In this document: piece by piece, positions 14,804 through 64,000 of the stretch | Layout of the letters: every line of letters starts with the position of its first letter | Numbering within the stretch: position 1 is the stretch's first letter | Source of the DNA: Neckera pumila | Lineage: Eukaryota > Streptophyta > Bryopsida > Hypnales > Neckeraceae | Length of the DNA stretch: 64,000 nt | NCBI GenBank assembly: GCA_963969595.1 | Contig: OZ018415.1 | Coordinates: 10,168,001 to 10,232,000, forward strand | Direction of reading: 5' to 3' | The notes under the pieces: generated by a model | The model's input: only the letters and a program-made list of their open reading frames with translations | Told to the model about the DNA's origin: nothing | Databases searched by the model: none | Position numbers and translations under genes: made by a program

Positions 14804-15754
14804 CCCCTAAAAGACCGGCATGCGTTTTTTGGTTATATAGAAATTTAGGGCAGGTACGTGTGACTAGAGATTTCTATATTTTAGGCTGAAATTTTAATAG
14901 ATGGTGAGTGCAAGGAGAATCTTTTGTATGCACTAAATTTCATGACATTAGGAATTGTGAGTCAAAAGTTATGGCCTAATATGTTACTTATTTTTGTAAC
15001 TGGGCATTTTGGGCAGATAAAAAAAAAATCACTTTTTTCAAAAACAAAAATTTTTAATTGGTTTCTAGAGTTATATACATGTAAAAAGCTTTGAATCATC
15101 CATTATGATTAATGAGTCAAAAGCTATGAAGATTTTTAATTTACGAGCAGTTACTCAGGGCAGTTATAGATTATCGACTCTAAAATAAACTTTGAAGTCC
15201 TTTATCTTACTCAATTTTCAATATTTTTTGAAAAAAATAAAACCATAGAATGTAGAATGTTTATTACAGCATTGCAACCATTGGGATTGGCATTTTGCAA
15301 TGCCATAATTAAATTCTTGACAATTTAGTATTTTTGAATCATTCTCTACTACTATAGTACTATCTACTTACTATTTTATTCCTATATGTTGGACAACTCA
15401 AAATGAAATAAAAATTTTCAAGTATGTATCCAACTTTTTTAGAAAAAAGAATTCAAAGAAGCGCCATCATTTTGGACATTTTTTCATCGAAAAGTGAGCT
15501 TGTGAAGTGCAGCTGCCATATTTTTTGCAGGGCCAAAAAAATAATTTTGACTAGTGAATTTGAATGCTTATATCTTGCAATCTCCGCAATGAAAATTTCT
15601 AAAATTTTTACCACATATTCTCAACTCATCATACTACAAGATCCTATGGTTACATGTGTCAAAAAAAAGGATTTTTTCAAAAATTGGGTACTTGTACTAA
15701 AAATGATAGTTTTTGATCATTTTTGATGAAAATATAGTTATGGAACTTTAGGGG
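14804..15754 (+). mobile_element. TTAA-flanked piggyBac-like element, copy 3
   Basis: 951 bp, same orientation as copy 1, termini CCCCTAAAAGACC and the complement CCCCTAAAGTTCC, TTAA at 14800-14803 and 15755-15758. The middle matches copy 1 closely (for example AAAATAAACTTTGAAGTCC and ATTGGGATTGGCATTTT). The 100-codon frame inside shows no transposase features. Confidence 0.75.
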
Positions 15755-15999
15755 TTAAGAACACAATAGATTTTTAAATAAAATGAAAGTGGATTTATCC
15801 ACACAAATATGAATTTCAACTACAATCGGTCATTGCTCTCAAACTTATACTTGAAAATCAGTCGTATGAAGGATAATACTATATTAAATTTTTTTTGCGG
15901 CAATCACCCAATAAGTGTAGTGATCATTACTAAAATGATAAAGATAATACTTTGGAATTCAATTGATCAAATTTGACCAATTTCATCTAAGGTGTTTAA

Positions 16000-20019: not shown

Positions 20020-21450
20020 ATGGGGAAGCTTGCCATCATGTCGGTTGCTGCACTGGTGATGTTGCTCTTTGCAGGTATTGGCCGTATTCGTAGCACTTGT
20101 CAATGCTTCAGTTAGCTAGCAGTAGTAATCAGCAACAGATAGAGTTATTTTAGTTAGGTCTACTATATTGTTCAGAGACTCTGTTATAATTTCATAACAA
20201 AATGATACAGGTGGATTGCATTGTCATATTTCCAATTGGGATTCCCAGGCTACACAAACTTAAGCAAAGTTGTATTGCTAATAGATCTTGTCATTTGATT
20301 GTAGTCCAAGAATTCATTTGCTAATGATAATGCTTGTGAATATATTGCAGGTGCTGCATAGGCGTGGACTTGTGCTCCCGGGTACAAGGACTGCGATGGA
20401 AATTGGCCCTTCAATGCCTGTGAAGTAAACATCAACACCGACATTAACAACTGCAGCAACTGTGGGTACAAGTGTGGATCCCATTGTGGCGCCAACGTTG
20501 TTCCCGCCTGCAAGTTGGGCAAGTGCGAGTTTACTTGCAAGCCGCCATATCTGGACTGCAACTACAATTGGAAGAATGGCTGCAAAGTCGACGGCAGTAA
20601 AGACGTGGACAACTGCGGTGCTTGTGGGAACAAATGCATTGTGCCTGCAAATGCGTACGTAAAGTGTGCTGGTGGGAATTGCGAATACACTTGCAAGCCT
20701 GAGTATTACAAATGTGACAGTGATTGGAATAACGGTTGTGAACATTCTTGTCTCTCAGACATTTACAACTGCGGTGGTTGCGGAGTGAAGTGCGGCCATT
20801 ACTCGAACACTAAATCTTTTTGCTACGGCGGCAAGTGTGTGTATAAGTGCAAGCCTGGGTTTGCAAACTGTGACGGCGACTGGGAGAATGGGTGTGAGAG
20901 TAGCCCCGGTATTGATGTATACAACTGTAGAACGTGCGGCTACAAGTGCCCTACCCCCAAGTACCTCGGCGGTGAAGCCAAGTGCACGTAAGTTGATCAA
21001 ATTTCTCATTGTCATCGCCACCAACGGGAGTATTAGTTCAAATGCTATGTCTCACAATAGTAGCAAGTATTTTGACGTTTAAGTGCATAAAGCTCTAAGA
21101 CTTTGACCGGTATAGATCTGAGGTCATTTGACTTTTGAATATTGATAGAAAGTTTTGCAGCTCTATTTGTACTTGTATAAACGTTGCATGTCGTGTCGCT
21201 AAGTAGGATATTCAATGCTTGAACCTAATAAACTGTGCCTTCAAGCTTGACCCGTGTGAAATTGTTTAGACCGTTCTTACCTTATTTGAACACGAAACTG
21301 AATCCTGGTGTTTTTTTTGTTATGCAAGACAGTTATGGAATGTGTGAGAACCAATCTTGCAAGAAGGGATGGAGTTGGGAAAGGAAGAAAAGCTTCTGTG
21401 TGAGCGGCAGAGGCGGAAGAAAGAAGTGTGTCTTGTGGATGTGTTGGTAG
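20020..21450 (+). pseudogene. Secreted Cys-rich repeat protein, nonsense codon at signal-peptide junction
   Basis: Three exons fit by phase and consensus: 20020-20074, 20351-20987 (donor AC/GTAAGT) and 21333-21450 (acceptor ACAG). Exon 1 encodes a signal peptide (MGKLAIMSVAALVMLLFAG). Exon 2 encodes four repeats of about 52 residues with the pattern C-x6-CD-x-W-x2-NGC-x8-D-x2-NC-x2-CG-x-KC, then KC-x3-C. Exon 3 gives a short basic Cys tail ending WMCW. The product would be about 269 residues, extracellular and disulfide-bonded. The repeat resembles STIG1-type and bacterial NGCE...NCGxCG repeats; a role in the cell wall or defence is only a guess. A TAG (20359-20361) lies just after G-A-A and before A-W-T-C, where Ax A cleavage would occur; CAG to TAG is the simplest origin. 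A TAG acceptor joined to an upstream phase-0 donor (such as 20056) could bypass it but would shorten the signal peptide. Confidence 0.75.
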
Positions 21451-35841: not shown

Positions 35842-40471
<4,630 letters not shown>

Positions 40472-40773
40472 GGAGGCAAAACAACTGGAACGTAGTGGTT
40501 GCTGGATTGCAACAACAATGGCAAGAACCGTGTAACAACGATCCAGTGGAATGCACAATTCGGGAAACGGTGGCAAAATTGAAAGGGCAACAGAATTGGA
40601 GGGATCGATGGCAGAAGAGTGAAGGTGGGGACATTCAGACTTCAAAGGATGATACAAGTTACTTGAAATCGAAGGTGATGGTGAAGTCCATTAGAAGAAA
40701 TCTGAACCCTGCTGAGTGCTGAGGGTTGTTGAAGCTACAGTAAAATGTGCATTTACAGAAAAAAAAATATTAA

Positions 40774-43785: not shown

Positions 43786-46700
43786 TTTTTAGTAGGATGA
43801 AAGGCGTATGTATAAGGGATGGTTTTGAATTCGTATATTATTATTTTGGAAGGTCATGGCAAATTATTTGAAAGTTCAAACTGTTCAGAAATGTATGATT
43901 TATACATGTTATTAACTTTTGAAGGACTTCATTCTTCTTGTAATGGAAGTGATTGCTTTTAGCATCTTGGGTATAGTGGAATTTTGCACAATGACAATGA
44001 GGCAAAAAGAGTAGTCCAAGCCTTGTACATGCCCCCCCCTTCCTGCCAAATAAATTGAATCGTCTGATTTGAAACGATGGTGAAAATAAGTTTGATTGCT
44101 TTGGTTTCTTTTTAACAAAGTGCAAATACAGAACAACATTGTGATTTGAATTCAAATTATCTGAGTAGTAGTACTGGAATGCTTTAGGGTTGGTATTCTA
44201 GTGTTTTTTGTTGAGTACCGTGCATTTTGTTTGGGAACACTACAAAACCACCTCACTTGGTGCTGGACATAAGATAGGGTTTTACGGTTTATAGTGGCAT
44301 GTGTAGAGAAGTGAGGGATTTCCTTTTGATTTGCATCTACGCTTTTGGTATGTTGTTTTTTGCTTGATGAGTATTCAATGTGGTGCTTGTGATTTTTTCG
44401 TCGTTTGTATCACAAAGGAGTGGCTACAGACTTCTAAGTTGGAATTGTTTTTTAACTGGATGTTGTGTTTCAAAGTTTTTAGCTTCATATTTATACAAGG
44501 TTTAATCAATTTCCAGCATTGCGTGTAGTGTTTGCAGGTGAATTAGGAGAATTAGGGTTTTGGAAATTTTTATCTCAATTTCAAGGGAATTAGAGTGGGA
44601 TGAAGAATAAGAAAGAGACAATGAAATTGAACATGAGGTTGTTGAAGAGAATGGTGTTTAGGATTCCCACATGTTCCATTAGAAAAGTTTTGAAGATTTT
44701 AGGAATGAGTTTATGATGACTATGGGGATTTTTGAAACACTTGTGAACAAAAATTTTGAAGTGTTGTTTAAAAAGAGACTACACTTGTATCCGTGTCAGA
44801 ATTTTTACATTCAATAGATAAATGATTTGTGTACCACTTCCAAAATTTATGTAAAAGCTTTACAACAAATGGAATAATACTACATGTACCCCTTTTGCAA
44901 CATTTTTGGAAATCATGTGTGCTTTGCTTGGAACTTGACATTCAATCACAATGTGACAATGTGATTAGAAGATGCAATAATGACATTAATACAAATATTC
45001 ATCCTTTATCAATGTGCACTTACATTCAAACTCACTCATTCATATTTTCCTCTTTTGTTACATATCCTATACAGTTTCAAACATTATGCACATCTCACAA
45101 GTGTAATGCCATTTTTGGCTCAACCAATGTTTTATAAATGACTTGCCCACCCACACAACAAGCAAACATCACAAGCAATACATTGGACTAGACTAGTAGC
45201 ATAAACAAAATTGGCAAAGAATATTATCATATTCATATTTTTTAACATTGACTAGTATAACAAACTACCACCCAAACCACCCGATTTTGAAGACACCCAT
45301 GTACTAGGCTACTAACATACTTTCAACCTTACCCCATCACATGTAATGAACCCACTTGCCCATCCAATTTAAATTAAAAACCATAGAATTCTCCAAAGCT
45401 TTAGAAATTAGATTGCAAAAATTGCAGCATATGAGATATACAACCTTGAAAATAAAATAGAAATATTGGCAAGACTACTAGGCTTCTAAACTAAACTTAG
45501 GGCAGAAATCACAACCACCCACACCTTCCTACAAAAGCTAAAACAAGAAAGACTAGGGGAACCATCACACATCTTTCTAGTAAACATAGGCTCTATCTTT
45601 CTTATCACCAATCATATAAAAATCCTATGTCACAAATTAATCACCCATATGTACATATTAACATCAATTGTGCAAATTAAAACACCACACTATAAGAACT
45701 CTAATAATACACAAAGTTAGATCATGCTCTTCCAATTTTCAAAGTAAAAATATAGTAGATGCACTTGTAATAACTAGAAATCTATTACCTTAAGACGACT
45801 ACAAGCACGCACACTCCATGCTATACTATTTACATTAGGACAACTAGCCTTCCATAGAAAACACAACGTTCAAAGGTCTATCAAATTCTATAAACATAAC
45901 TTGAAATAAGAAAGCTAAAGAAAATACAACATTCACAATCAGTTTTCTAGTACAAATAAATAGACAAAAAATATAAACATTGACAACAAATTATCGAACA
46001 AATTTTGAGACCAAAAAATTAAATTTGATGATCAAGCCCAATAATTTTTCAACTTAAGATATACATGGGTCAAGAACAAAAACATTTATTTTGGTCAACT
46101 AAATATCCAAGCACAACAAGCCTATTCTACAATCTAATCAGATATACATGGATACTTATATAACCATAATGTACTATATTGCATATTAAAGCATTTTTTA
46201 TCCAAATACTTAATAAAGCCATATAAAAAATATAAAAAGTATTAATTTCACTCACAAACTCCAGATGCCTAACTTTAATTAAAACAAAGAACTTTGATGA
46301 ATCCCTCTAAATAAGTCCTTTGGAGGGGGGGTAGGCCAAGTAGCAACAAACAATTTTGTTGTGGTGTCAAACGAGCTCCATTTTAGTTTTTATGGATGAA
46401 AGCGTTTGGCGATTGTTATGGCTTCATTAAAGAATCCTGACTACTTTGCTCAAAGTTTTGTGGGTAATTTTAGCAAAGACAAATTTTGCATTGTGACAAA
46501 TTGTGGCAACCTCGGCAAGGCGTTGCTCAAGAGTTATTTGGGCAAACCTACCTTTGAAGTCAGAGCTAGTTGGGCAACATGCTTTTCTATTTCATTGCAA
46601 ATATGGCTTCTACCATAAAAATGACATACAAACTTTGGCGATAAAATTAGACAAGTAGCAAGCAGACAAGCACACCAACAATGAGCAAGGTCAATATAAA

Positions 46701-47475
46701 TTTTATAATAATCTTAATGGACACAAGTAGGCCACACTGGGACCTACCGATTTTAGAAAAATCTTCACATCAAGCAAGGGTGCGAAGAAGTAGTCAAAGA
46801 ACTGGAAAGGCTTGCAAATGCGCTTACATGCATAAGTAGCGCAATGTAGAGATTAATCCAAAGTTCTAGCTTTTCCTTGTGAGTCACTACTGAGGGGTTA
46901 ACTTAGCCAGACACTCTACTAATAACTTGCACCCAAAGTCCAAAAACTATTAGAGATCCAGCTCATGGGTTTCATGCATTAAGCTACAACATATTTAACA
47001 TTCTCTAGCTATATACACTTAGCACGTTATCATTGTTGATGGTTAATTGTGTTTGAAAATAACATTACATGATATCCATTACCAAAACTAATGAAACAAC
47101 CTAATATCATCATGGCTAAATCGAATAATGAAACATTGTGGTTTTAATTTCCTCTTACATCCTCATTTAGAAAGAAGCTCAAAATCAAAGGAACTAACAT
47201 CCATGGTAAGACTTCAGAAATTTAGAATAATGTCATATTCTAACATTCTACAATCCATTTGATACTCATCTCATAATTATACCAACCCCCAATCCTATTC
47301 TACCTTTAATATCTTCTTATCACAAACATATCACCAAGTGAAGTGCAAAGAATCTAATGAATGATACCATTCAAAGTTTGGCAAATTTGAAATTGTATTT
47401 CAACTTCAAGGATGAATCACGTAATGATGTGTAGCTAGTATTCAAACACAAAGACTTGGTATTTCTTATTACAAA
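43786..47475. other. Intergenic, nothing recognised
   Basis: 3.7 kb of AT-rich sequence. The longest open frames (about 100 codons at 43841-44155 minus and 44829-45137 plus) have no recognisable domain and no splice context. Confidence 0.45.
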
Positions 47476-47477
47476 TA

Positions 47478-47913
47478 AGATAAAGCAGCCCATTGTGGTC
47501 AAATGACCCATGGGGGACACATGATGATCCCATTGTGGTTTTTCTGACCACAATCAATATCTCACCTAATGGAGTAATTAGTGACCTTATTAGGAACATG
47601 CAATAATTTCAGTGCAAGTCATTGTAGGAAGTGACTTTTTATGTCCCTCCACATATAAAAGAAAATTGTCTCCTTTAGAAGAGGTAGGTGAGCATTATGG
47701 ATACACTTGCAGTTGGTTTTGGAGTAGTTTGCCGACTTCTTTGGACTGAACACTTGAGAAATTCACAGCTAATTCATACTCTGTTTGAAAATTATGATTT
47801 CAATTGCCTTCACAAATTCTCATACTTATCTTTACATGGGAAAAAATTTAAAAAACTTTAGTGATGAGATGATGGCAGACTCCTAATTCTGACCACAATG
47901 GGCTGCTTTACTT
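47478..47913. mobile_element. MITE family A copy 2 (TA target, inverted relative to copy 1)
   Basis: 436 bp with termini AGATAAAGCAGCCCATTGTG and the complement of CACAATGGGCTGCTTTACTT, flanked by TA at 47476-47477 and 47914-47915. Internal blocks match copy 1 on the other strand (TAGGAAGTGACTTTTTATG, ACCTAATGGAGTAATTAGTG). Confidence 0.8.
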
Positions 47914-47915
47914 TA

Positions 47916-48228
47916 TATCACCTCCAAAAATACTCCAATCCAATTTCCATTCAAAACATGATGAAATGAAGCAAGACTATCTCCTGAAAAGATGCAACCC
48001 CTGCCAGACAATCCCCCCCCCTTGAAAATCCTGAGCCATTGATCTTTCAAGAAAAAATTCCCCCTGATCACCGTTGATCCAATTTAATACAAATACAAAT
48101 ACAAACTATGGTACAAATACGATTATAAAATACATGTATGGGTAGAGAAATAAAAAGACGGATACAAAAAATGGGCAACATATCCCATATGGATTGAGAA
48201 CTTCATTTGTCCCTGCAAATTACAAAGA
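47916..48228. other. Intergenic, nothing recognised
   Basis: Spacer between MITE family A copy 2 and the telomere-like array; no feature seen. Confidence 0.45.
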
Positions 48229-48297
48229 GGGGTTGGGGTTGGGGTTGGGGTTAGGGTTGGGGTTGGGGTTGGGGTTAGGGTTGGGGTTGGGGTTGGG
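48229..48297 (+). repeat. Interstitial telomere-like (TTGGGG/TTAGGG)n array
   Basis: About eleven 6-bp units, nine of the TTGGGG type and two of the TTAGGG type (near 48251 and 48275). A second G-rich run, GGGGTGGGGTGGGGGGTGG, follows near 48355. Both could form G-quadruplexes. The usual plant telomere unit is 7 bp (TTTAGGG), so the 6-bp period is notable. Confidence 0.8.
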
Positions 48298-48950
48298 ATT
48301 TCTAAAAAACTTATAAAAAATTTAAATAAAAAAATAATTGTGTGTGTATGTCCAGGGGTGGGGTGGGGGGTGGGGAGGGTAATGTGATCTGTAAGTGACT
48401 ATCACTATCTGTTCAAAATACAGGTACTCACTACACTTGTTCAAGATTGTGATGCAAAAACAACCAAACTTGTAGAAACTTGCCAAGATTATGTACCACA
48501 TACTGTCATACTTCAGCTGACTCTTATCTCAAATACATCACTTCAAACCATATTCCAATCAAATTCCCATCCAAAACTTGATTGAATGAAACCATTCTTG
48601 TTCAAGAATCATAAAATCCAGCTGACTCTTATCACAAAAAACATACCACCCTTAAACACACTCCAATCCAGTTCTCATTCAAAATTTCACCATGTTAGCT
48701 TAGGAATGGAATGAGACCATTTTTGTTCAAGACTTGGCCACAAAAACCAAGACAAAAACTCACAAAACTTCCCGAGACTATGTGCCACATACTCCAGCTG
48801 ATTTTTCTTGACCAACAACCACGGCATCTCCTCTATATTTGTATACAGTCCAATGTTCACCTCCTGATCGATGGGATATTCCAACCTGCAAACCCTGACC
48901 CGTGCAAGCATCTTTGGCAAATTTCAAACCATGGCACACCCTCCAAAGCC
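48298..48950. other. Intergenic, nothing else recognised
   Basis: A phrase CACTCCAATCCAATTTCCATTCAAAACTTGAT-like recurs loosely at 47930, 48550 and 48660, suggesting an old segmental duplication. No gene is supported. Confidence 0.35.
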
Positions 48951-49057
48951 TAAACTATGATGCATTTTTTTTTTGAAACCCGGAGTTTATTCCAAGATAA
49001 ACAAACAACGGAGACCGAGGACAGAGCCCTGGCGAAAAGATAAACTATGATGCATTT
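48951..49057 (-). mobile_element. Short retroinsertion with 17-bp target duplication
   Basis: TAAACTATGATGCATTT occurs at 48951-48967 and again at 49041-49057. The 73 bp between starts with a T-run on the plus strand, which is an A-tail on the minus strand, and reads TCTTTTCGCCAGGGCTCTG at its minus-strand 5' end. A long target duplication plus an A-tail is the signature of target-primed reverse transcription, so this is a strongly 5'-truncated LINE or a SINE. Confidence 0.8.
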
Positions 49058-50389
49058 CAAACCAAAGACAGGAAACTACATGGTCGATAACTCACACAGC
49101 TATAGAATCACAAAACAATAAGTTTTATATACATAATGCATCCAATTCAAGCTAAAACCACAAAGCATAGACAAACACCAATAACCACATTCATGAACCT
49201 AAACTGCTAAAATTGCTCACCGTTCTTGCAAAATAACCAAATCCATTGTACTAAATACTTGAAACTATTGGCGATTTGCAATGACCTCATACAGCGATCC
49301 TGGTGAGAGTGGCCATTATAGGCAATAAAGTGTATACTATACTGGCAAGAGAGTAGGAGTGAATGGTAATGCTGGTGGTGATGTTACATAAGGATACGGT
49401 CAACAAGTTCTTGGAGAGGACAAATTTCTAGTGATGAAGCCTAAATCTAATTGCTCAGTGGATTACCTTCTGCTCCCGTAGAGTACTTTGTAGCCCCAAC
49501 CAGGGTTGCTATTTGGCGAGCCTGGGAGCCTGGGAGCTTGTAAGCGGGAATTTTTTGGGTTGAAAAAATCTGTGCAAAAACTGAAAATTGATGCGAAGAA
49601 CCTAAGACCGTGTGCATTGAATGAGCTTAGGTTCTATAACCGTGGATTTTAGGAAAAATTGTGGTTAAAGAAATTTAGGGTCATTTGTGGACAATGAAGG
49701 ATATTCCAATTTGGATGGGATTTTTTGGGCGTATAAATTAGAATTAGGGTGTCTTATCATACACGGAGTGTTCTAAGAAGGGGTAACTAAGTAAATAAGC
49801 CGAAGAGGTAGGCACTTGATATTTTCACCTATTGATATTTAGTCATTGGAGATTCTTTTGGAGTGGTCCCTTTCTTCTTTATAAATTTCTTATAAAAATC
49901 AATTCTTTCTCCTTACTAGAAGGACAATTGTGACCTCATGCCACTCCATTTTGTTGGACACTACTCAAGTATGACTACCATTGTTTAGAGGTTTAGGGTA
50001 ATTGTTTTCCCTTCTATTTTTTTTTGTATACACAGAGAACTAATTGATGGAAGGAGATCTAATTTCATTCCAATTTCATTACAGTTTAGGGTTTATTTCT
50101 AACACTCAGTAGTTTGCAAAAGATAAATGTGTTACTCTCATTACCTCCAATTTCTGGCCATTACAATGTACCTCCCGTTACAGTATTCAAAAACTCCAAA
50201 ATTCATCCTCACATTTCTCTAATAGGCAAACTTTATCTCTGGGTTTTTTTCATATTGTTTTTCTTAATGTGAGCATATTATCAAACAAGAAGCAGATTGC
50301 ACCCAAATCTAGCCATAAAACACACAAATCAAATCAACATAAAAGTAATACACATAGTTCAACTCATAAGATGTGTCAATCTTATAAGC
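49058..50389. other. Intergenic downstream of the ParB-methylase gene
   Basis: No supported gene. It should contain the 3' untranslated region of the minus-strand gene ending at 50390. Confidence 0.45.
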
Positions 50390-53300
50390 CTAAGTCGCGG
50401 TGGACTCGGTAATTGAAACCTCACTAGAAGATGACTCCAGAGTCTCTTCACCCTCAGAAGCTGAAACATCTAAGAAATGAACAACATTTGAAGCATATTT
50501 GGATTTACGAGGTTTAAGGTCTCTACAACCATGTTGTTCATACTGTGATGCCATCTTCTCAGCGTACACCGGAAGATCGTAAGACTTCACCGAGCTCAAG
50601 ATCAATCTTCGTATCTTCTTCAGCCGGTGAGTGCCGGTCACTCCTTTGCTCCTTTGAACACCACAAATCCAAGGGTTAGATCCTTTGAATTCATTATATG
50701 CAGCGTATATTAGAAAGAGAAAAAAACATGTCATTGCAAAATGGAACTTACTTACTAGGTCTAACATTGCGTGTGAATACCATCGGTTCCACGTGCATGG
50801 CATCGAGACCGAGAGCTGCAACAGCTTCTACCGGAGCTTCTGTCGCTCCTTCCCCGGGAGTGGCTATCTTCATTGGTTCAAGAACCATCTTGAAGATATT
50901 GAGGTCCTTCTCCAAGGCCACAATATGTCGTCCGGTGCCCCGACATGCAGTAATCAAAGCACCTACAAAACAAACATGTGGAGATTAGACTTTCATCACA
51001 TCAACAAACAAGTACACATTTCACTTTAGGAATTTTTTATGAAAGTGGAAACAAACCTGTAGCTGCGGTGCAGTCGAGAACTATGTCTTCCTCGTCAATG
51101 CAACCTTCAATGAAGAACTGGAGGAACCTTGCATCCTTCTCCCGCGGCCTGCGCCACAGCCATTTGGATTCCGGCTCTATCATCATTGTCTTCTCTGTGA
51201 TATAATTGATGACCATGTCCTTCCTTTGCAAGTTCCAATGTGCTTTTGTCATGGCCGAGGTCTGCCTGAATTTGAACTACGAAATCCCTTTGTCACCCAG
51301 ATCCTTCACGAACAGGATGACTCCGAACTTCACTGTCTGCAAAAATGAAAGCAAAATGTTTAGTGCATATAAAAATGCCGTCGAGGCAATTCACATTCAC
51401 TTTGAATATGTAACAATAAACTCACCGTTTCGCCGGCTTTCAATCCCGACGCTAGATCCAATTGGTTGAATGCCAACCACTCTTTCTTAAACTTCAACTT
51501 CTTGAAAACCTTCTGCAACCCCGCAAACATACTCCGCGATTGAACACTATAGGAGTGAAACACCAGAAGCCTGCCGTTGTCTTCTAAGTAGTCCTCAGCA
51601 AACTGGAATGCACTTTGCATTCCCTTAAAGTTTGGATCTGAGTTCCACGACGGAACGCGCTTCTTGGAGATGAGTGGAACGGAAAGGTTCTCCGGGCAAT
51701 CAATGATAATTAGATCCATGACAGGATCTCAGGTCACCTCGCGGTCCAATGAGCGAGGCCTTCCCTGATTTACCTGCAATGAGAAAATTGTTCACGTCGT
51801 TAGACAGTATGACCGTGAAACACCAATTCGTTGAATAACACATTAAAGCTGCAAAGAGAACTTCAAGGTCTAGTATGTACCCTGCAAATGAAGTCCATGA
51901 CTTCAATATAACAATTTGGTAGTGAATTCGCCGACTCCTCCATGATATCGGCGATGGAGACGTTCAAGATGAGTTCCTCCGTCTTGACGTCGTCATCGTC
52001 AAGCACCACGACTTGCGTGCCTTGCGTCACCATATCCTTCGTCCACTCTGCAAGAACAGCCTTCCTCTTCAGCCCGCTTTGGCTTCCCTCGACCAACTGC
52101 GAGCTCTGATCGACTGCGGATGACATTGGAATGACAATTGTGTCACCCTCATCTTTCTTCTTCCCCTTTGCCTTGGCTTTCTCCACCTTTTCCTTCTGCT
52201 TCTCTTCTAACTTGGCCGCACGCTCTGCCTCCTTCTTCTCTTTGTTCACCAAAGCAACTTGGAGACGAGCCGCTTTCTTCCTGTCAGCGTGGTCCCTCTT
52301 CGCAATTGCCTTCCTCCTCTGATCGTCATTGAGTCCAACAAACTCATCCGCGTTCAGGTCAATCGCATCGAGGCCCTCCAAAGAATCCCGGAGTTGTTGC
52401 TCTGACGGTTGAGTGTAGGAAATCGGGCAGTCAATATACCATCCTCTGCCGCTGAGATGAGCCGTGGTAAATGTCCGAAGCTGATTCGCCGTGTACATGC
52501 AACTCGGAGAACTACGGTTTAGAAAATTCGAAAGGAACGGTGGAAGGTCCACCCTTGGAATTGCTCCTTTTCCTTCAAGTTTGAATTTGAAGTATCTGCA
52601 ACAGAAGAGACAACAGACATGAAGGTAGAATTGGGAGAAATCGACTTAGAGAAAATACAACTTCTCTCTCATATACTTCTACCACAAATCAAGAATTATA
52701 ATCTATTTAGAATTTTGAGGTCAGGGAATTACATTGTGAAACTCTGACGAGACAAAAATGGGGGGTCCCTAAACAACCTCTAGAACATCCGTCGGATCCG
52801 ACGGATGTCCCAGAGTCTCCTCCCGAACCCCCTGGATTTGATCTTTCCCTAACTTTTAGCACAACTTTTTCTTAAAGAATATGATTTTTGACGATAAAGA
52901 AGGCCCTCATGAATTCAGATAGCCATTTCAAAATGAATATTATTAATACCTAGTATTAGAGACATACCGGAAAAGAACTCTTTGCACTGCCTATTGGGAC
53001 CCCTCTTGACTGCTAAAGTTGTTGCTTTTCTTGAAGTAATTTGCTCCTCTGAGATGGGGCAAGAATCCTTGATCCCAAATCTTCCTCCTCCAACCTTCCA
53101 GATACTCTAGTAAGGTCTCTGGTTGCAGGGGAACCTTCATGTTGATTATGATGTTGTCCTGCCTAACAACATCATCATAGAAGTGCACAACTGCATCTTC
53201 AATCTGTGACAAGATAAGAAATGTTAGCGATTACATGATACGAAATGCATTGCAATTATTAAAATATTTATATATCCCATTGAAATGAAATATGGCCAAT

Positions 53301-55489
53301 TTTAAAATTAAAAAATACTTCTATAGAGAAGTACTTACCACTACATACCAAACACAACGGTTCAAGAAAGGACCAAGTAATGTCTCTGACACTGGTTTAG
53401 GCGGAAAGCGTCTAGCCTCACGTGAAGGTTGTAAGGAATTCCACCACTTGAGGAACTTGATTTTGTGCTCTACCGTAGTATTGCATGTGGCAACCATCTG
53501 TAGCTTTTCCAGTGTCATCTCCGGGACCTCATTGGAGCTCCAATGTTTCTCAATCTGACTACAAAAATAACATCATTGTCATTAATATTCTGAAATTCAA
53601 ATGAGATCAATGATAAACAACCAAAATGAAGGCCCAAAAAGCACTTCTTGTAGAAAACCAGGCGTATTAGCTGGATGGGCCACCACGACCAGCTTAGACA
53701 TTTTGATATTGAGTTTGCCGGCTTTCTCATTTGCTCTAGCTCTCATTGCCTTTGCAAGTTCCTCTGGAGTTCTCTCCTCTTCTGGCGTGATCTCGTTATA
53801 CCTTCGACCCGCTGCATCTGCAGATTGGGCAATCTCTTGCTGCACAAGTGGAAAAAAAATTTCATATTCAAAATAGTAAAACATGGCCAAAATCAATAGA
53901 ATAATAAGGAAAGAATGACAGTTCACATATATTCTTACCCGGAAAACAAAGGATGTGAAGACTTGCTGTGGCATAGCATACCAAGTTTTCTTGGGTTTAT
54001 GGGAACCACAAATTCGGACCTCTGACGGCCTCAACATTTCCTTGAACCGCTCTATAGGAAGGAGGCCATATTTCTGCACCCTGTATAATGTGTGCACCAA
54101 ATTGGTCTTGACATGCGAGTCTTCGGTAGACCTGGAGAGTACACAATAACACAAACCATATTTCTTCAATTTACCTCATAAAAGTTGCAGAATTTCTGAA
54201 TTACTGAAAATAAGTTGAAAGTGAAGGTTTAACATGGGAAGATCACTCTCAGGGTCCGCTAGGTACTATGTGCATTCAGATTTTAGACCTTGTATCATAT
54301 GTTCAACAATTTCAATAAAATGATAAGAAGATAGTTTGAATAAATTTTCCTCCTTTGACAATTAATGTTCTAAATTATGGATAATATTATTAGGTATTGA
54401 TAATTGTTGATTAACTCTTGAAATAAATAGACACATTCCGGAGCTCAAAAACACTTCCACATCTCTATTATATACAAGAAGCTTCTCAAATATATGTCAG
54501 AATTGATAGTTTATATTGTTTGAACATTAATGTTTTAGTCAGCTGAATATTTTCTATAAATAAATTAATTGAGAAACATGCAATTTCATTTCATTTCAGA
54601 ACCATCTCTAGAAATCCCTTGATATGATATTTGAACTTGGATTCTTTGGAATTACAAACATACAACCATTATGGAACAACACTCAAAATTCTAGGTCAAA
54701 ATCATAGTTCATATACAAGTAAATGTATTAATTTTAATCACAAAAAATGCAGCAATTTAAATTCAACAAAAACAAGTTAAAAGTAAAGTACTAAATGAAG
54801 GAAACAAGATTCTTACTTGTTTATGTCATGCATTATATGCATGACGAGCTCGGTCTTGCCTTTTGTATCAAGAATGATTGAGTCAACACTATAGTGCCAC
54901 TCCTTGTCTCTGGGGTGCTTCTTTGTGATGTAGTTCATCCATGCTATGAGTCTGTGATTACCATCAAAGACATATAACTTGAGGTTCTTCAAGAACCTCA
55001 ATTCCTGTATGGACTCGACATGGGCATTGAAAATGGCATTTCCTTCCTTCCACAGTGGACTCCACTTCTCCATCTCCTCTACCGTGAAGTCTAAGCTTTC
55101 ACCGCCTTCATCTGTGGTGGTGACATAGAATACTGCAGCTCCATCTCAATAACCATTGGTGAACTCGTGCTCCAAGAAATCAAGGTCACAAGAGAGGGTG
55201 AGCCTCACCATGGGCATTGGTACCATGCGACAAAGCGGGATTTGAAGATGGAATAGGTGATCCGGCTTCATCTGCAATGATGCAATTGTGTTGACGGAAT
55301 CCACCTTGTGGTACTGTCGTAGATCGTCTTCCAGCAAGTCTTTGCTGTCAGCCTCCAACACATCATTGGGCACATCTTCCTCCATCTCTTCACCTTCTTC
55401 TTCACCTAAAATATGTGGAAGGACTCTCCAATGTTTGGAGTTTCGTGAATGGTATCTTCATGCCAAAGGTTTGTGGAAGTCACACCCAT
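50390..55489 (-). pseudogene. ParB/sulfiredoxin-like domain fused to beta-class amino-methyltransferase, five in-frame stops
   Basis: Ten exons join with consensus GT-AG sites and correct phases: 55489-54817, 54131-53939, 53839-53645, 53554-53339, 53203-52968, 52595-51881, 51773-51426, 51336-51057, 50962-50756, 50682-50390. Counted from the ATG at 55385 the product is about 1083 codons. Residues 141-145 are DGNHR within KLYVFDGNHRLIAW, the ParB/sulfiredoxin-fold signature. A Lys/Glu coiled stretch lies near 580-620. The C-terminal part has the beta-class order: DLIIIDCPEN (728-737) at motif IV, a target-recognition-like middle, and VLDCTAATG (910-918) plus ACRGTGRHIVALEKD at motif I; the canonical DPPY is DCPE here. 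The tail is acidic and Ser-rich. TGA/TAG stops interrupt at 55458, 55146, 52991, 51729 and 51277, yet there is no frameshift. The first may lie in 5' UTR. At least one upstream exon may be missing. Confidence 0.75.
52760..52834. repeat. GGATCC-centred palindromic hairpin unit in methylase-gene intron
   Basis: A perfect 24-bp palindrome at 52785-52808 (half-site ACATCCGTCGGA, centre GGATCC) is bracketed by GGGGGTCC on the left and ACCCCCT on the right, about 20 bp away on each side. The whole lies in the intron 52596-52967. The same architecture recurs at 63593-63664 and in the array at 57227-57875. Confidence 0.85.
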
Positions 55490-55711
55490 CTGCAAGTTCA
55501 GATCAAAGAATTAACCAATACCCACATACTTGCATTCACAGAATTGAAGTTTCAAGCAAGAATAAATAAATAAATCCAAGGAAAAATGAATGCATTTAGG
55601 TTCAATCATTTGAAGGTTCAAGTGAAGGTTTGCAAATTACATGTATTACACATTCAAAGGTCCAAAGCAAGAAATTCCAAAAATGATTCCACTCAAAGAA
55701 ATTCAGTCAAT

Positions 55712-58700
55712 TTAGACATCTTCTTCTGAGTCAGAGCTCAAGTGGATGAAAACAGGTTCTCCTATAACCTGAACACTGCTACAAGCGCACTGACAAGTCT
55801 CTTCCTTCATTGGACCATCGACAATAATGGACACCTGACTGCTTGAGCTATATTCCGTTTCCGAACTCTCGGGAGACCTAAACTTGTCCGGACGGTTTCT
55901 AGCCATCTCAAGGATCAAATCAAGACGCCTACGTTTTGCTTTTGGTGTGAGGCTTAGTTTCCGTTTTGCTACTCCAGGGTCACTGACTCTATTGAGCACA
56001 TAACTCTCAAAAGCTTCAAATGCATAGTCAGCTGCGTCCATCACATCCGCAAAGCTTACCAAGTCCTCTTCATCAGCTTCATCTTCTTCATCGCCTTTCT
56101 CATCTTCTTCATCGCCTTTCTCTTCTTCGGAATCGCTAGAGTCCACGACATTCTCCTGCATTGGTACCAGTGGCTGAGAAAGTCTTGCTTCATAAGTCTC
56201 TGTATCAGTAGGAGGCATGAGAGTGGGTGAAGATAGGTCTTGTTCACCTCCAGCCTTCTGTGGATATGCAACATTGCTAGATTCAGAAATCAAGAAAGAT
56301 TTTCATGTTTAAGAAAACTTAGAAATCGCCACACATGGACCTTGCTCTTCACGTTGACAAATCAACTTATATCACATGGAATTTTTTGACAGTACTCACC
56401 AATATTCTTTTGAAATCTTAATAACCGCTATTAGAAAATTGGAAATGGATTCAAACTTTGTATTATAAGGACACCGCAAACCAAAGCAATAAGAGAATTT
56501 TCATCTATGGTTTTCTTCAAATATGCTTCAAAAATATTCAATTTGCTATCAACAAAATTTCATGAAGCACCTCAATTGCCAAATCTAGAGAATTCGTAGA
56601 TGAAAGATGAAATAATGAGAGATAAATTCTTTATCCATAACAATGAAGAACTCAAGTTCTGAAACTAAAAATTTGTCTAAACCTTCAAGAAATGATGATT
56701 GCCATGATTTGAAAAATTGATGTCACCAATATCTATACTTGTGAAGGATTACCAAGTGCATTTGAATTTATAAAGCTCAAAATGTATTGATAAGCAAGCA
56801 TTCAGAAAATCTATGATTTCTAGCAAGCCTTCATAATTGTAGATGCAGTCTTGTAGTTTTGTATATTTTAATCAAAGGTTCAATCTCAAATTATTGAAAT
56901 TTTTTCTAATCCTCCAAATTTATTTTTTGGTACAGAGTTATAATTGAATCCAAAATTTTTATTCAAATCTCGAAATTCCTTTCAAAGCTTTGATATCTAC
57001 CTCTGAGTTCTACTATGTTCGTACCATTAGAATTTACAAAGTTCCTCTGAAATGTCTCTGGAAGCTCTAAAATCTACAGAAATGTACTCAAATCTTCTAA
57101 AATCTACAAAGCTGTCTCTAAATCTTCTGAGAGCCAAAGAAGTCAATTGAAACCTTCAGAAATCTACAGATACTCAAAGTTTTTATTTGAAATCAACAGA
57201 AATTTGAAAGGGGTGATCTTAAATCAGGGGGTCCAGCTGAGTCACTCTAAGATACTATTGGATCCGACGAAGGTGTCGTCCGACTGAGCTGCACCCCCTA
57301 GTTTTTGATTAGTTTGAGGAACCCGATCAAGAAACAGTGAAACCATAAATGGACGCTGAAATCAAGGGGTCAAGCTTAGTCACTCTAGCGCACTGACGGA
57401 TCCGATGAAGGTTTCGGCCGGTTAAGCTGTACCTCCTAAAAAGCGAAAAGGATAAGGAACTCGATCACCGAACTGTCAAGCAAACAATATTTTTGACTGT
57501 ACGTTCAAAAACGGGGGGTCAAGCTGAGTCACTCTAGCGTACTATTGGATCCAACGAAGGTTTCGGCAAACTGAGCTGCACCCCCTAAAAAGTGAAAAGA
57601 ATGAGGAACTGGATCAACTAACAGTGAAGCCAACAAAAATTTTGAGTGCACGTTCAGAATTGGGAGGTCAAGTTGAGTCACTCTTGCGTACTGTCGGATC
57701 TGACGAAGGTTTTGGCTGTCTGAGCTGCACCCCCTAAAAAGCGAAAAGAATAAGGACGAACTGTGTAGCCAACAAAAATTTTGAACGCACGTTCAGAATC
57801 GGGGGTCAAGCTGAGTCACTATTAAGTATTGTCGGATCCGATGCAGGTTTTGGCCAACTGAGCTGCACCCCTCCAAAAGCTAATTCAAGATTTCCACAGA
57901 ACCCGATTACAAAGTACTCATCCAATGTTGACAATCCCGTTCGGCGAGCACCCGCAGTTTGGATGTGAGATTTCGAGGCACGAAAAGATCAGTGTCTACT
58001 TCAGTATGTAGAAATCAAGCTTACCCTTGCACACTCCCGGTGTTTGTCCTTGCTCGGACCTGCCTGAAACCTGCTTGCTACCGGCGGTTATTGACTCACA
58101 TGAATTTGAAAGAGTTTTGAATCATTACCTGCGACTTGGGCTGTGATCTTCTGGAGCGGTTTTGAGAACCTGTAGTCACCCCTCTCGCCCTGCTACGCGT
58201 ACTCCTCGTCATCCTCCTCTGCTAGAGAAGACAACAAAATTACAAAATGTGGCGAGTTGTGAAGGAGAGACTGAAAAAATTGAAGAGATTAATATGATAA
58301 TGGAAATGTTAGCCCCGGCCTGGCTTCACACACCGGTGTTCATTTTGGATAAGCTTAGTTTGAGATCCAGCTTAAATGGCGCGATTACGGAAATCAGCGG
58401 ATGCTCAAAATAGAATGGAACTCCTCCAATTATCGGGCTATCAGGGGTACATTAGAGATCGCGATGTTATCCTTCAAATCGACGAAGTTCGTGGGCGCCA
58501 GGTCGGGACCCAGTTAATTCAAAAGTTACCCAAATTCCTAGCCTGTGCGATCAGGTATTTGCTTGAGATTTACTGAAAAAAGTTTGGTATTCATGCGGTG
58601 GCGCGAGCAAGTGGAGCGTCGACTAGGCAGTCAATCGTGGACCGTCGATCCTACAGGGAGGAGATGGACCTTTGCTAGTTGACAGACCCAGCCGGTTGCC

Positions 58701-59238
58701 CGAGCAGTTGTACCGACCAACCAGGTGACTGTCACTCGTAGATCCTAAAGCCGTGGCTGAATCATATCTACCCCCAAATACATTGCATCTAAAAGCAATT
58801 GACACCTCAGTATGTTGAAAAGACTCAATCAAATTACCACAAACCTTTATTACAATGTTGATCTTTGAGGAACTAATTGGAGAACAAGCTAATGAGATAA
58901 TGAAAAGCACAAAAAAAAGCTCTTACGTTTAGGTTGTCCTCAATCCTTCCTTCGCGGTGTGCATTTGAATTCTCTACGAACATCTCTTGTCCTACCTCAA
59001 CACCGTCACTAGGAGCATCCTCTTCTCCAACACTAATCTGAGCTTCAAATTGAAGAATTCTTCGAAGATCGCCGGGTGTCGTCTCAGTAGCTTTCGGCGG
59101 AACTCTCGGTCCTCTTATCATTCTGGATCGTCTCAAAGCCTTGGCAGATGAAAAATAAAGCGAACTACGTCTCCTTCCTCTCTTTCTCGGTTTTACTCTA
59201 ATCAACTCAATTACTTTGCAATCTACAAGCATGAGCAA
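55712..59238 (-). CDS. Acidic nuclear-type protein with basic N-terminus, function unknown
   Basis: Three exons, all phase 0: 59238-58927 (donor GTAAGA), 58221-58129 (acceptor CTCTAG, donor CAG/GTAATG) and 56257-55712, giving 316 residues without an internal stop. Residues 16-24 (KPRKRGRRR) and a later KAKRRRLD are nuclear-localisation-like. The second exon is Arg/Ser-rich (TRSTRSRARG). The last exon has a long Glu/Asp tract, then KRKLSLTPKAKRRR, and ends in SSDSEEDV. No enzymatic domain is visible; chromatin or DNA association is a guess. It lies head-to-tail just upstream of the ParB-methylase gene (223 bp from its first exon), and its 1.87-kb second intron holds the GGATCC hairpin array. 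It might be the N-terminal part of that gene, but the splice phases do not connect. Confidence 0.55.
57227..57875. repeat. Five-copy tandem array of GGATCC hairpin units
   Basis: Five units with a period of 138-149 bp, starting at the G-runs near 57227, 57366, 57513, 57662 and 57801. Each reads GGGGGTCAAGCTGAGTCACT, then TCGGATCCGACGAAGG, then CTGAGCTGCACCCCCT, so the outer parts are near-complementary and the centre is a degenerate GTCGGATCCGAC. Between units is a conserved spacer (AAAAAGCGAAAAGAATAAGG and GAACGCACGTTCAGAA, itself a small palindrome). The array lies in an intron of the acidic-protein gene. Confidence 0.85.
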
Positions 59239-61397
59239 CCAAGAGAATGGAAGAACCTAGTCGCACTCATTGACAGCAACTGAAGAAAAATGAGAACCAT
59301 AGGAATGATTTTGAAATGCAAGAGTGCCCCTTGTTATGTTTAGTGAGGTTGTACGGCTGACACCGTCACATGAAGTTCAATCGTGATGAGAAGCGTATTA
59401 ATAGGCTGTCAAAGTAGATGCAGATGGCAAGTTCATAATCGCGCCGCTCAAATAAAATCTGTACAAAACGAAATGACTTTTGGGGGCTATGTCAATATTG
59501 AAGACTGAACCACGAAATTAATAAGCAATGATTTTAATACGCACTCAGATTCTTTACGCATGAGCTTCTAGAATCTGAAAAATAATGCTTTCAACAATGT
59601 TGCATTTCATAATGCCCTCAATTCTGTATTACAATAAATTGTCACAACCTAGGGATTTGTTTATTTTTTTCAAAGAATATGACAAGTTATAGACATATGA
59701 GTCTTGGGATTGAAAACATGGCCTCATTATAATGTTGATTACACTATGATATATGAATTTTTAAGAATGGTACTATCAACAAAATGTTTGTAGTGTTCCA
59801 AAGTGCAAAAGAAGTATTGCTTATACACATAATGATATTCCATAATTGAAGTGGTAATGTTTGAAATTTTTTTGGGAAATGATAGACACATTTATTACTA
59901 AGGTCCACTGTCAAAGTTTTTGCAAAATAGATTTTGATTTTCTACATATGTATCTAGTAAATGAAATAAGAATCATTCCAAAAATTTCTAGAAGAAACTC
60001 ACTTCATTTTTTTTACATTAAACTTTCAAGAAGAAAATGTGGGTTCAATATTGAAGACAAAACTACATTGTTTATAGCTTTTGCAAAAAATTACATCATA
60101 GCAGTCTAAATTGTCAAATTTTGCTAATAAGATATTATAGACTTGTCTAAAATTATTGTTGGGAAATTCTAGTGAATGTACAAAAAAATGAATTCTAGAA
60201 GTTTTAATCGTATGAAGATGCTTATATATCCCAAATAACTTTGAATGTCCGGGAACTTCTCATTAGCACTCCAACTAAAATTAAACAAAGCTTCCCACGT
60301 AATGAATAGCATTATTTATGAGAAAGAAATTTGTAGAAGATTTATATTGACTTCTTCACATTTCTTTTGGGCTAGTAAGTGCACTCGTATTTTGCTTTCT
60401 GTGCCCAAGTACTTGCGCATTTGAATCTAGTAAAATTAAAATTTTATATTTGTAGAGCTCTTCCAAATGAACGAAGCCTCAAGAATTTTGAATGATTGTC
60501 ACTAAAAATTAAAACCGGAAGAGTTTTCTCAAACTCAAATTGTCTAGCAAAGGTACAAATGTTCCTTCAGGTGTTAGTGCATTTATATATTATGATTTTA
60601 AAAATATATATTTATCTCAGAAAATGTATATGTGCATTAATTTTTATTTTTTTATAAGTTGAATTGTCTACATTTATACAAATTATATACATTCGCATTG
60701 GACTAATATGTATTACATGTGATTATAATGTGGACCAAGTATTAAAGGAATTGCGCAATTAATCCTAGTTGTAAGGAGAATTTCCAAATCTTTAATTCTA
60801 CAATTTATGATATTGGATCTGAATGTGCTATGATTTTGAATGTTACCTTAGTAGAATATGAGAAGAAAATTCAATAAAAATTGGTCAATTTTTCTTTGGT
60901 ATATTATAAGGAATTCGTAGCAAAGTGATAAAGAAAAGCTGAGGTCATGTTCAAATTTCAAATTGGATTTTTACGGATTAGTTTTTTCCTACTTAGATCT
61001 AGTATCCTGTGCATTCACATGTGTACATATTTTTTGTATTTTTTGTTAAAAATGTTGATAAAAAATCCTATTCTGCCGTCTCCACTTATTCTCTGTAAAG
61101 CATTCTTATTTGATTCCCTAATAATCAAGGAACATTAATTCATTATATTCCTTTGCCATATAAAGTACTCAATTCAATTTCAGAAGAGATATGAAACTTT
61201 TGGTAACAACTGCAAAATCCTTGCAATCAATATCTTCAACAGAAAAATACGGCATTAAAAATTGGTTGCACAATGAATACATAGGACTAGCCAAAATGAA
61301 GCTATAGAGGATCCCCAATCATAGAGGATTGAAGGTTTGGTTCTTTACCTTATGTATTTGTTGATTGAATTTTTCATGTTGTCGGAGTGTCTCCGCA
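59239..61397. other. Intergenic between divergent genes
   Basis: 2.2 kb of AT-rich sequence between the minus-strand acidic-protein gene and the plus-strand transposase gene, so promoters of both should lie here. I see no convincing core promoter motif. The 82-codon frame at 59861 is not supported. A 3' splice-like CTCCGCAG just before 61399 suggests that an upstream transposase exon lies in this interval. Confidence 0.4.
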
Positions 61398-61407
61398 GGT
61401 TTCAGCA

Positions 61408-64000
61408 ATGGCTTTGCTTAGAGTTGATGGTCATGACATTCCTCTTGTGTTTCCAATAGTAGAAGGTGGACGCGCTAGAGTTCCTTGTCACCTTTTGCAC
61501 GTCCGCTTCAAATTTGTAGAAACCTCCATCTATGTTGAGGAAGAAAAAAGGTCGGAATCAGGTGAAGTGGTACAGTCTGTCCCAGTTGCGACATCGGTAG
61601 AGGATGGAACAAGTTGCTGGTACCTTGCTCCTAGAAACTATAGAGCATACAGACTTCCACTCTCTATGCTAGATGCATCTACACAAATCCAGAGTCGCCA
61701 ATCAGATAATTCTACTGTTGATATGCCGGTCAATCCTCATGCCTTGTCGCCCAGTACACCTAGAGGAATTCTACCTATCCTACAGATGCATGTAGTACTT
61801 CATGTTGTAAAAGAGGAGAGGTTAGATCCAATTATAGAGTTGTCTACAGAATCTGAAGGAGAGTCTCCCAATGTCAATGGTGAGAATCAGAGTTGTTCTG
61901 TCCGAATTGAACCGGGCGAGACGAATTTTGTGAAATTAGTATCTGGAACCCCGTCAAGGAGTCTCTCTAATTCCTCATTGTTAGTACAGCCTTTGCAACC
62001 ACCTGTACTAGCAAAAGCAAGCATAATGGAGTGTCTCAAGAGACTTGCTAGTATGCATCGCTCTTGAAACGAGTTGTTGACAATGGATATGAGCACTGTG
62101 AAGCACCAGCAGGTTCCATTTCTTCCACCAGTATTCGACGTGATGTCATCTTTGAATTGCCTCCTTGTGGGTCGTCTTCATCTTCATCAGGGGCCAAGAA
62201 CTTGGAAGGAATGGACAAGCGCTATGATGGACATCCGTGGTGCAAGCTAGTGACCACGAACATTCACAACGCCGACAACCTCAAATTCCGTAAGTCGTAT
62301 TGTGCTGGCCATCTTGCCTGTGAGAATGCCAATTGTAAGTATTTGAAGAGGGCTTCAAAGCAAAACGAAACTGAATGGAGTAGCTATACAGTGTTTCCTT
62401 TTACTGCTGGTGGGTGTCCTCCAAAAGAGTCTACCCTAGTTTGCAAGGTCTGCAAGATCACACCTACGTGTCTTGGCGCATGCAACGCTAGGATATACTT
62501 TGCATACACAGATAACCCATAAATGAGTAGGGTTGCTATTCATTTTGGAGAGCATGGTCACCCTGTTGCTAAAGGCATGTATAGAGATTCTACTAAAAGG
62601 ATTTGCGGACTCATTGCGGAACAAGTAGCCAAAACACCCACGGCCACAAACTCCGCAATCACTCTTGCTGCTAGTAAAGACTTTCTTGCAAGCCACTTAT
62701 TTCACAATGGAGAAGGAGAGAAGAAGATGTTGAAAGTGGAAGAAATGGAAGAGGTCATGGACCGCTTCCAGTACTTGAGTAGTTCAAGTATTCGCAATGT
62801 GATCTCTTTTTTTTGTTCTAACAATCGAGGAGGGATAATTGACAACATCATGACCATGAAGAAAGAGGCAAAGTTTGAGTTCATATATGACAGCGTCTTC
62901 CCAGGCCAAGGCAAGGAAAAGGTATACATTTTCAAGATGCTTATGGAAGGACCAGGAAGTGGAGTCGACCTCGTAAGGCGCATGCAACCGGGAGGAGATT
63001 TGCAAAATGCGTGGTTGATGTTTGACCATGTGAAGCGCGTGAAGGAATGGACCACAATGGCCTGCCACGTGTATGATACCGAGTACTAGAAGGTGATGAC
63101 TATTGCAATGTTTGATATGCAATCCAAAGATACCGAAGTTCAAATACAGTTTTGGCGGAGCTTGAACGCGGTCATGGATCGCCATGGAGTGGGAAACCCT
63201 AACTTCAAAGGATTTATGGCAGATAGCGCTATGGCCAATTGGAATGCAGTCCGCATAGTCTATGGTAGTGGTTCCGCCGATGTTGAAATGGAGAATCGTG
63301 AGAGGACATGTTTGTTGCATTGGAGTACCTCTCTTCACAAGCATACGCAGAAGTACATCAAGGAAGCATTCCAACAGCAACACATTACATTGTGCAAACA
63401 ATACAAGGATTCAAAGAATATGGACCAAGCCGAGGTCCGTTACCTTGCAATACAGTCTTGGTGGTTGTCGTCTGAAGCTGCCAATGAAGAGCTCTACATC
63501 ACTTAGATCACTGGCTGGCATTTTGGCATTTCCGCTATTTTATTTTATTTTATTAAAATGATGGTATTTTTTTTTTATGGTACCAAAAACAAGGGGGCCT
63601 GGAAGCACTGTTATAGCATCCGTCGGATCCGACGGATGTATTTGACGTATCACCAAGACCCCCTGATTTCTGTTCTTTGAAATACAGAATTCAATTTTGG
63701 TAATAGAAAATGTTAGAGGATTTTTTTTTATAGGAAAATAAGATGGGAGAAGTATGCTTTGTTATTTCAGTAGCAATATATTCCTACATATACTGTCATT
63801 ATGAATCCCTTGCCTTATGATACTACAGAACCAATGCACCGAAATATTTCAGAAGTTCCATGTTTCTACAATTCTAAATGTCAATTACTGTTCACTAACT
63901 ATTTTACCATCTCTTGTGGATTTTCTAGAAATTGAATTTGGAAGAGATGGCGGACTTGCCATCTTGCAATTTATCCGAAACGATGCATAACAAGTGGCTA
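61408..64000 (+). pseudogene. MULE-like transposase with GCM/WRKY-like zinc domain, broken and partial
   Basis: A first frame (from ATG 61408 to 62067) has an uncharacterised N-terminus. The second frame (62064-63506) carries the domains: a GCM/WRKY/FLYWCH-like region with KRYDGHPWCKLVTTN, CAGHLACENANCKYLKRA, CKVCKITPTCLGACN and HFGEHGHP (paired Cys and a final HxH), then a MULE-type core with VYDTEY and GFMADSAMANWNAVRIVYG as candidate catalytic Asp sites, and CLLHWSTSLHKHT. Stops at 62520 (TAA) and 63087 (TAG) interrupt this frame without shifting it. The change of frame near 62050 can be a frameshift or a 62-bp intron (GTATGC...CAGCAG). A further exon begins at 63929 after CTAG, in frame (ADLPSCNLSETMHNKWL), and runs off the window. 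The role would be DNA transposition in the nucleus. Family assignment is by pattern only. Confidence 0.7.
63593..63664. repeat. GGATCC-centred palindromic hairpin unit after the main transposase exons
   Basis: A perfect 22-bp palindrome at 63617-63638 (half-site CATCCGTCGGA) is bracketed by GGGGGCC and ACCCCCTG. It lies between the transposase stop at 63504-63506 and the next exon at 63929, so probably in an intron. It is nearly identical in its centre to the unit at 52785. Confidence 0.85.

Follow-up and report, generated by a model that had tools for sequence, protein, structure and literature searches.

A 64,000-nucleotide stretch of Neckera pumila contig OZ018415.1 (positions 10,168,001-10,232,000; hereafter the window) carries, on the minus strand of its positions 50390-55489, what we consider likely to be a decayed member of a eukaryotic gene family encoding a ParB-type domain fused to a methyltransferase. 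The gene was modeled with ten exons and nine introns, each of the latter bounded by GT and AG and consistent in phase. The introns point to a eukaryotic host, and the gene is probably a decayed copy from a large, intron-bearing family, probably of plants. The product of an intact member is most likely a single long protein with an acidic leader, a nucleotide-binding domain of ParB/sulfiredoxin fold, a charged-coil linker, and a module derived from an amino-methyltransferase, in which motif IV would lie ahead of motif I. Nucleotide switches of ParB type fused to methyltransferases are otherwise a theme of phages and bacteria. If this is true, such a fusion has been maintained and reshaped inside a nuclear genome, with a conserved nucleotide-loop motif and altered catalytic motifs. 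Captures of bacterial amino-methyltransferases are known in few cases (bdelloid rotifers, Marchantia), to which this family would be added, and it would define a set of proteins in which binding of nucleoside triphosphates, DNA binding, and residual methylation can be tested. No description of a plant ParB-methyltransferase fusion was found among the papers listed by title and start of abstract, with ParB named in part of the searching only.

The ParB/sulfiredoxin-type half and its family

Exon 1 (54817-55489, minus strand; upper limit inferred from a CAG preceding an ATG) comprises the acidic leader and the ParB/sulfiredoxin-fold domain. A DGNHR signature had been noted in a preliminary description of this DNA, and it was confirmed at 54965-54951. 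Homologue evidence covers exons 1, 7, and 8 only. With exon 1 as the query, 72 of 105 candidates proved to be homologous proteins (33-81% identity, weakest E value 8.9e-15). DGNHR was exact in 50 of the 72 and changed by one letter in 8, and the other 14 ended short of it; i.e. the motif was intact in 50 of the 58 homologues long enough to include the loop. The downstream A/W positions were likewise conserved. Exon 1 contains a G-x-x-R-x-x-A loop, which we take to be the nucleotide-binding loop type of the ParB fold, and the domain may bind a nucleotide via GNHRxxAW.

The structure of an intact relative, P0005, was predicted with a mean predicted local distance difference test score (pLDDT) of 76.2 and with a pLDDT of at least 90 at 106 of 234 residues. 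Among the best 50 Foldseek rows obtained with this model, the top 29 bore the titles ParB, Noc, KorB, PadC, serine kinase, SbnI, or sulfiredoxin, as did 28 of 30 rows in VIA (both counts include uncharacterised proteins, one in Foldseek and two in VIA). The model has the alpha/beta fold common to ParB, SerK, SbnI, and sulfiredoxin, which supports the ParB/sulfiredoxin fold proposed in the preliminary description. A DNA methylase of a Mycobacterium phage was the third viral structure match (E value 0.046). Several results weigh against the ParB-type assignment of exon 1. The best Foldseek E value was not under 0.04, no ParB Pfam family was seen in 46 members of the exon-1 family at E≤1, and the exon-1 profile retrieved four weak matches from PDB sequences, none of them to ParB and the best to a ribosomal protein (E value 0.041). 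A ParB-like PHROG match occurred in 1 of the 46 members (E value 0.082). The exon-1 alignment found no confirmed relative in viral and prokaryote genomes, and tblastn with P0005 gave no match in phages at E≤1. Pfam matches to KMP11 (7 of the 46 members, best 0.0047) and DUF1015 (4 of the 46, best 0.002) were given no weight.

Identity reached at least 60% in 39 of the 72 homologues, and 24 lay on contigs longer than 20 kb. A tree was built from the window and 44 homologues (45 rows), and 21 of its 42 inner branches were well supported. The window clustered with ENA rows, seven of which are on contigs longer than 80 kb, and P0076 and P0034 formed long branches. P0072-P0075 share one common truncated end on contigs of differing size, which hints that a defective copy may have been multiplied. 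Of the eight homologues with a variant loop, six (P0006, P0016, P0019, P0022, P0025, and P0027) belong to the closer ones on contigs longer than 20 kb. Together with the truncation of P0072-P0075, these variants suggest that other copies of the family may be decaying too.

The preliminary description had inferred that the gene entered a mobile element, which is conceivable. Inverted repeats within 44000-64000 were weak among the longest 25 of 60 pairs, and a Pfam scan of ten stretches and two joined pieces matched no transposase. Both results would fit a host gene family that was expanded by ordinary duplication and was never the cargo of a mobile element, as would the conservation of residues across clades. 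This explanation, which is compatible with a decayed fusion family, is quite conceivable, although we lean slightly away from it: 22 of the 72 exon-1 homologues are both at least 60% identical and on contigs longer than 20 kb, and the common end of P0072-P0075 looks like that of a multiplied defective copy.

Separate observations were made in the same part of the window. A long reading frame at 62052-63503 (plus strand) with two stops inside has a Cys/His-rich stretch and no Pfam match; one segment of it, as judged by eye, looks like a MULE-type transposase. The palindrome CCGTCGGATCCGACGG occurs exactly at 52789-52804, in intron 5, and at 63620-63635, flanked by runs of G and of C. Three matches were counted with at most three mismatches, versus 0.01 expected, and a degenerate form occurs within a tandem array at 57218-57883 with units of about 149 bases. 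A role like that of parS was considered for this palindrome.

Gene model and proposed continuity of the two halves

The splice-consistent ten-exon frame of the preliminary description held with respect to its nine GT..AG introns in phase, but the frame is not open. Splice sites were chosen by hand. At two places, the exon 6 donor and the junction between exons 3 and 4 (weak donor GTGCTT, acceptor TAGTCAG), phase decided the choice, so that these two provide no independent test. In-frame stops are found at 55148-55146 (TGA, exon 1), 52993-52991 (TAG, exon 5), 51731-51729 (TGA, exon 7), and 51279-51277 (TAG, exon 8). When the exons are joined and read from position 55406, 1,090 codons precede the last stop, and four of these codons are stops. 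The ATG frame starting at 55489 differs from that of DGNHR and runs into a TAG at 55408-55406. As judged by eye, the relative P0006 has a single uninterrupted frame over the same exon-1 region. Because relatives like P0006 read through in one frame and the window copy does not, a frame break was placed in exon 1 upstream of about position 55406. Four in-frame stops and this frame break mean that the window copy is broken.

One splice model at this locus joins both domains, and a single transcript probably carries both halves. Neither a transcript nor a second locus with both halves was found, and this speaks against a fusion. The locus might instead hold two neighboring genes, one for a stand-alone ParB-like protein ending in HDINK-stop and one for a separate methyltransferase-like protein. 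The end of exon 1 bears on this question. A DINK-type end was located by pattern in 53 of the 72 exon-1 homologues, and 46 of these stop immediately after it, as a true C terminus would. The other 7 continue into dissimilar letters, the next residue being Y (4), C (2), or L (1), which is better suited to an intron donor than to a fixed C terminus. A GT donor in that frame needs a next codon beginning with T; the codons of Y and C always have it, and those of L can. Stop codons begin with T as well, and therefore only the seven continuing homologues discriminate between an intron and a C terminus. A whole-length search with the spliced model, in which 7997 candidates were scored, gave none at E≤0.001 and thus no homologue covering both halves, as two genes would predict; exon-sized queries succeeded. 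On the other hand, phase is carried by exons 2-6 through to exon 7, and fusions of both domain types are already known (reported in PMC12704722). We therefore regard two separate genes as unlikely and retain the single fusion gene.

The methyltransferase-derived half

The order of motif IV before motif I given in the preliminary description was reproduced. Exon 7 (51426-51773) has DCPE at the motif IV position (51701-51690), exon 8 (51057-51336) contains the start of motif I, and exon 9 (50756-50962) contains its end and an ALEKD stretch, followed by a variable tail. The motif I sequence DCTAATG is split across the exon 8/9 junction. This is the beta-class order, and the homology is colinear. 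A 271-residue piece was used as the query for this half. It matched Pfam N6_N4_Mtase (E value 2.3e-4), a PHROG methyltransferase (2.3e-6), and DpnA structures (0.017 and 0.019). PADLOC MTase_II was matched at 2.9e-7 over both halves of the piece (residues 48-266 against 28-247/260). PADLOC mad2 was matched at 6.1e-5, with the motif IV half as the best stretch and the halves in reversed order. In phages, tblastn with the piece gave 167 records at E≤1, the lowest E value among the matches listed being 3e-4. Of 50 rows spread across the ranking, 46 were annotated, and 41 of these were named methyltransferase or methylase, in keeping with the bacterial- or phage-type methylase originally suggested. 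Comparison with 12 phage methyltransferases by hhalign gave Prob 96.8 and an E value of 2.8e-10 (query 49-269 to template 26-240), whereas shuffling the columns of the whole piece 100 times never gave more than Prob 3.2, and five pieces from elsewhere in the protein gave ≤1.0. On these comparisons, kinship with methyltransferases through motif I is firm, and the motif IV assignment is based on colinearity.

Other results have to be set against these matches. The piece scored 21.6 bits against PF01555, below the gathering score of 26.7; the whole protein matched N6_N4_Mtase at an E value of only 0.015; and the best NCBIfam match (0.041) was far under the cut-off. The 12 phage methyltransferases had been chosen for matching the motif I half of the query, which favored the hhalign score of that half (Prob 97.3 alone). 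The motif IV half alone was not significant (Prob 0.6, score 16.6), and 100 column shuffles of it reached up to Prob 15.8 and score 26.2. Exon 7, although colinear within methyltransferase profiles, was not significant by itself; in PADLOC it matched mad2 at 0.018, and its homologues P0001 and P0003 had no match in PADLOC or in Pfam. The exon-7 alignment found no confirmed relative in viral and prokaryote genomes. A structure predicted for exon 7 from three sequences had a mean pLDDT of 39 and was set aside.

With the methyltransferase piece as the query, 4 of 431 candidates were homologous (68-74% identity over 35-44% of the query), P0001 and P0003 to exon 7 and P0002 and P0004 to exon 8. As judged by eye, similarity to P0001 begins at the exon 7 start and similarity to P0003 inside exon 7, both end at the exon 7 end, and P0002 and P0004 are bounded by the start and end of exon 8.

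Beta-class enzymes have the consensus (D/N/S)PP(Y/F/W) in motif IV and GxG in motif I. Here, motif IV reads DCPE in the window and P0001 and DCQE in P0003, whereas P0002 and P0004 end short of it; motif I reads DCTAATG in the window and P0002 and DYTTAIG in P0004, with the last G alone retained. The window gene and the few relatives that cover these motifs thus depart from both canonical forms. All 12 phage relatives have a motif I of GSG or GSC form. Their motif IV is DLPY in six, DPPY in four, and DIPY in one, and lies outside the annotated coding region in one; the first Pro is absent in 7 of the 12 and Tyr is retained in 11. The preliminary description had proposed that motif IV was altered before this copy decayed, and the homologues agree, in a small sample: motif IV is visible in just two of them beside the window, a point that counts against the conclusions drawn from it. 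Because motif IV lacks an aromatic residue and motif I its first glycine, we favor the interpretation that the module is degenerate and that catalysis was lost or changed. The module might then serve in binding DNA, S-adenosylmethionine (SAM), or a partner, by analogy with METTL14 beside METTL3. METTL14, with EPPL in motif IV, shares the loss of the aromatic residue and is described as non-catalytic with a structural role (PMC5023411). It belongs to the MT-A70 family and an RNA methylation complex, so the analogy concerns mechanism only.

Conversely, DCPE might be just an unusual motif, and the module of intact members a functional N4/N6 amino-methyltransferase that modifies DNA or RNA. All three sequences that show motif IV retain its Asp and two of them its second Pro, ALEKD aligns with a GIE-type stretch of the phage relatives, and the first Pro is also absent from the phage DLPY and DIPY motifs. 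However, none of these three has an aromatic residue at position 4 of motif IV, all three sequences that cover motif I have another residue in place of its first glycine, and METTL14 with its similar EPPL is reported to be catalytically inactive (PMC5023411). An active enzyme thus seems improbable, marginally more so than two separate genes. Taken singly, motifs like DGNHR are short, but chance resemblance in non-coding DNA is hardly credible in view of 72 homologues, a fitting fold, and a colinear profile match. Recent bacterial contamination was ruled out by introns and divergence.

The simplest source of a decayed fusion gene would be the ancient capture of a ParB-methyltransferase fusion of phage or bacterial type. 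Fusions of a ParB-CTPase fold to an N6_N4 methyltransferase are stated to be commoner in phages than in bacteria (PMC12704722). Phage and prophage proteins of this kind unite both domains in one chain, as is proposed for the window gene. The window gene differs from them in its introns, long linker and coil, and altered motifs IV and I, and its ParB half had no relative in viral, prokaryote, and phage collections at the sensitivity used. The 12 phage methyltransferases L001-L012 (from Flavobacterium, Enterococcus, Staphylococcus, and other phages) have an equal motif order and are colinear by profile comparison, but with 189-280 residues they probably leave little space for a ParB half. A Bacillus cereus ParB-methylase, in which an adenine methylase is linked to a ParB domain and for which nonspecific nicking is reported (PMC5512222), has a similar domain pairing, by its description, but is bacterial. 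Bacterial-type amino-methyltransferases in eukaryote nuclei are a theme shared, again by description, with Marchantia MpDN4MT1a/b, reported to be active and described as without extra N- or C-terminal domains (PMC8566409), and with the chromodomain-bearing bdelloid N4CMT, reported to be active (PMC8885841); PMC12344493 cites both. The earlier view that no nuclear plant version is known agrees with the papers listed as far as the fusion is concerned, but plant amino-methyltransferases of bacterial type are known, namely MpDN4MT1a/b (PMC8566409). It is a speculative possibility, on the unlikely side, that a large, old plant family of nuclear fusions was captured from a phage- or virus-type fusion, acts as nucleotide-gated DNA clamps or nickases with the degenerate methyltransferase as a DNA reader, and brings a ParB-type switch to eukaryotic chromatin or to mobile-element upkeep.

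Linker exons and other features of the window

Exons 2 (53939-54131), 4 (53339-53554), and 5 (52968-53203) encode linker and are based on splice sites and phase, and exon 3 (53645-53839), also linker, has the weak donor picked for phase; none of the four had a Pfam match. Exon 6 (51881-52595) contains the Lys/Glu coil of the preliminary description, found as a Lys/Glu/Ala-rich coil at 52327-52145, and an acidic stretch (best Pfam E value 0.068). Exon 10 (50390-50682) encodes the C-terminal tail up to the stop. Upstream of the exon 1 ATG, at a distance of about 220 bases, the minus strand has an acidic/basic open reading frame (55712-56302) whose product closes with SSDSEEDV (best Pfam E value 0.11). 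No second copy of the gene was present within the 64,000-nucleotide window, and Rfam and tRNA scans gave no match.

Elsewhere, a repeated Cys-rich open reading frame at 20362-20991 (plus strand) had no Pfam match at 0.01. Three related repeats of mixed orientation (4964-5907, 11303-12246, and 15024-15758) share 76-84% identity, and 3271-3913 is a 643-base fold-back structure, with a match of 88.5% between the stretch and its reverse complement. On the minus strand, 35842-40690 contains exons of a gene resembling FAD-dependent aromatic-ring monooxygenases (Pfam FAD_binding_3 and Rng_hyd_C).

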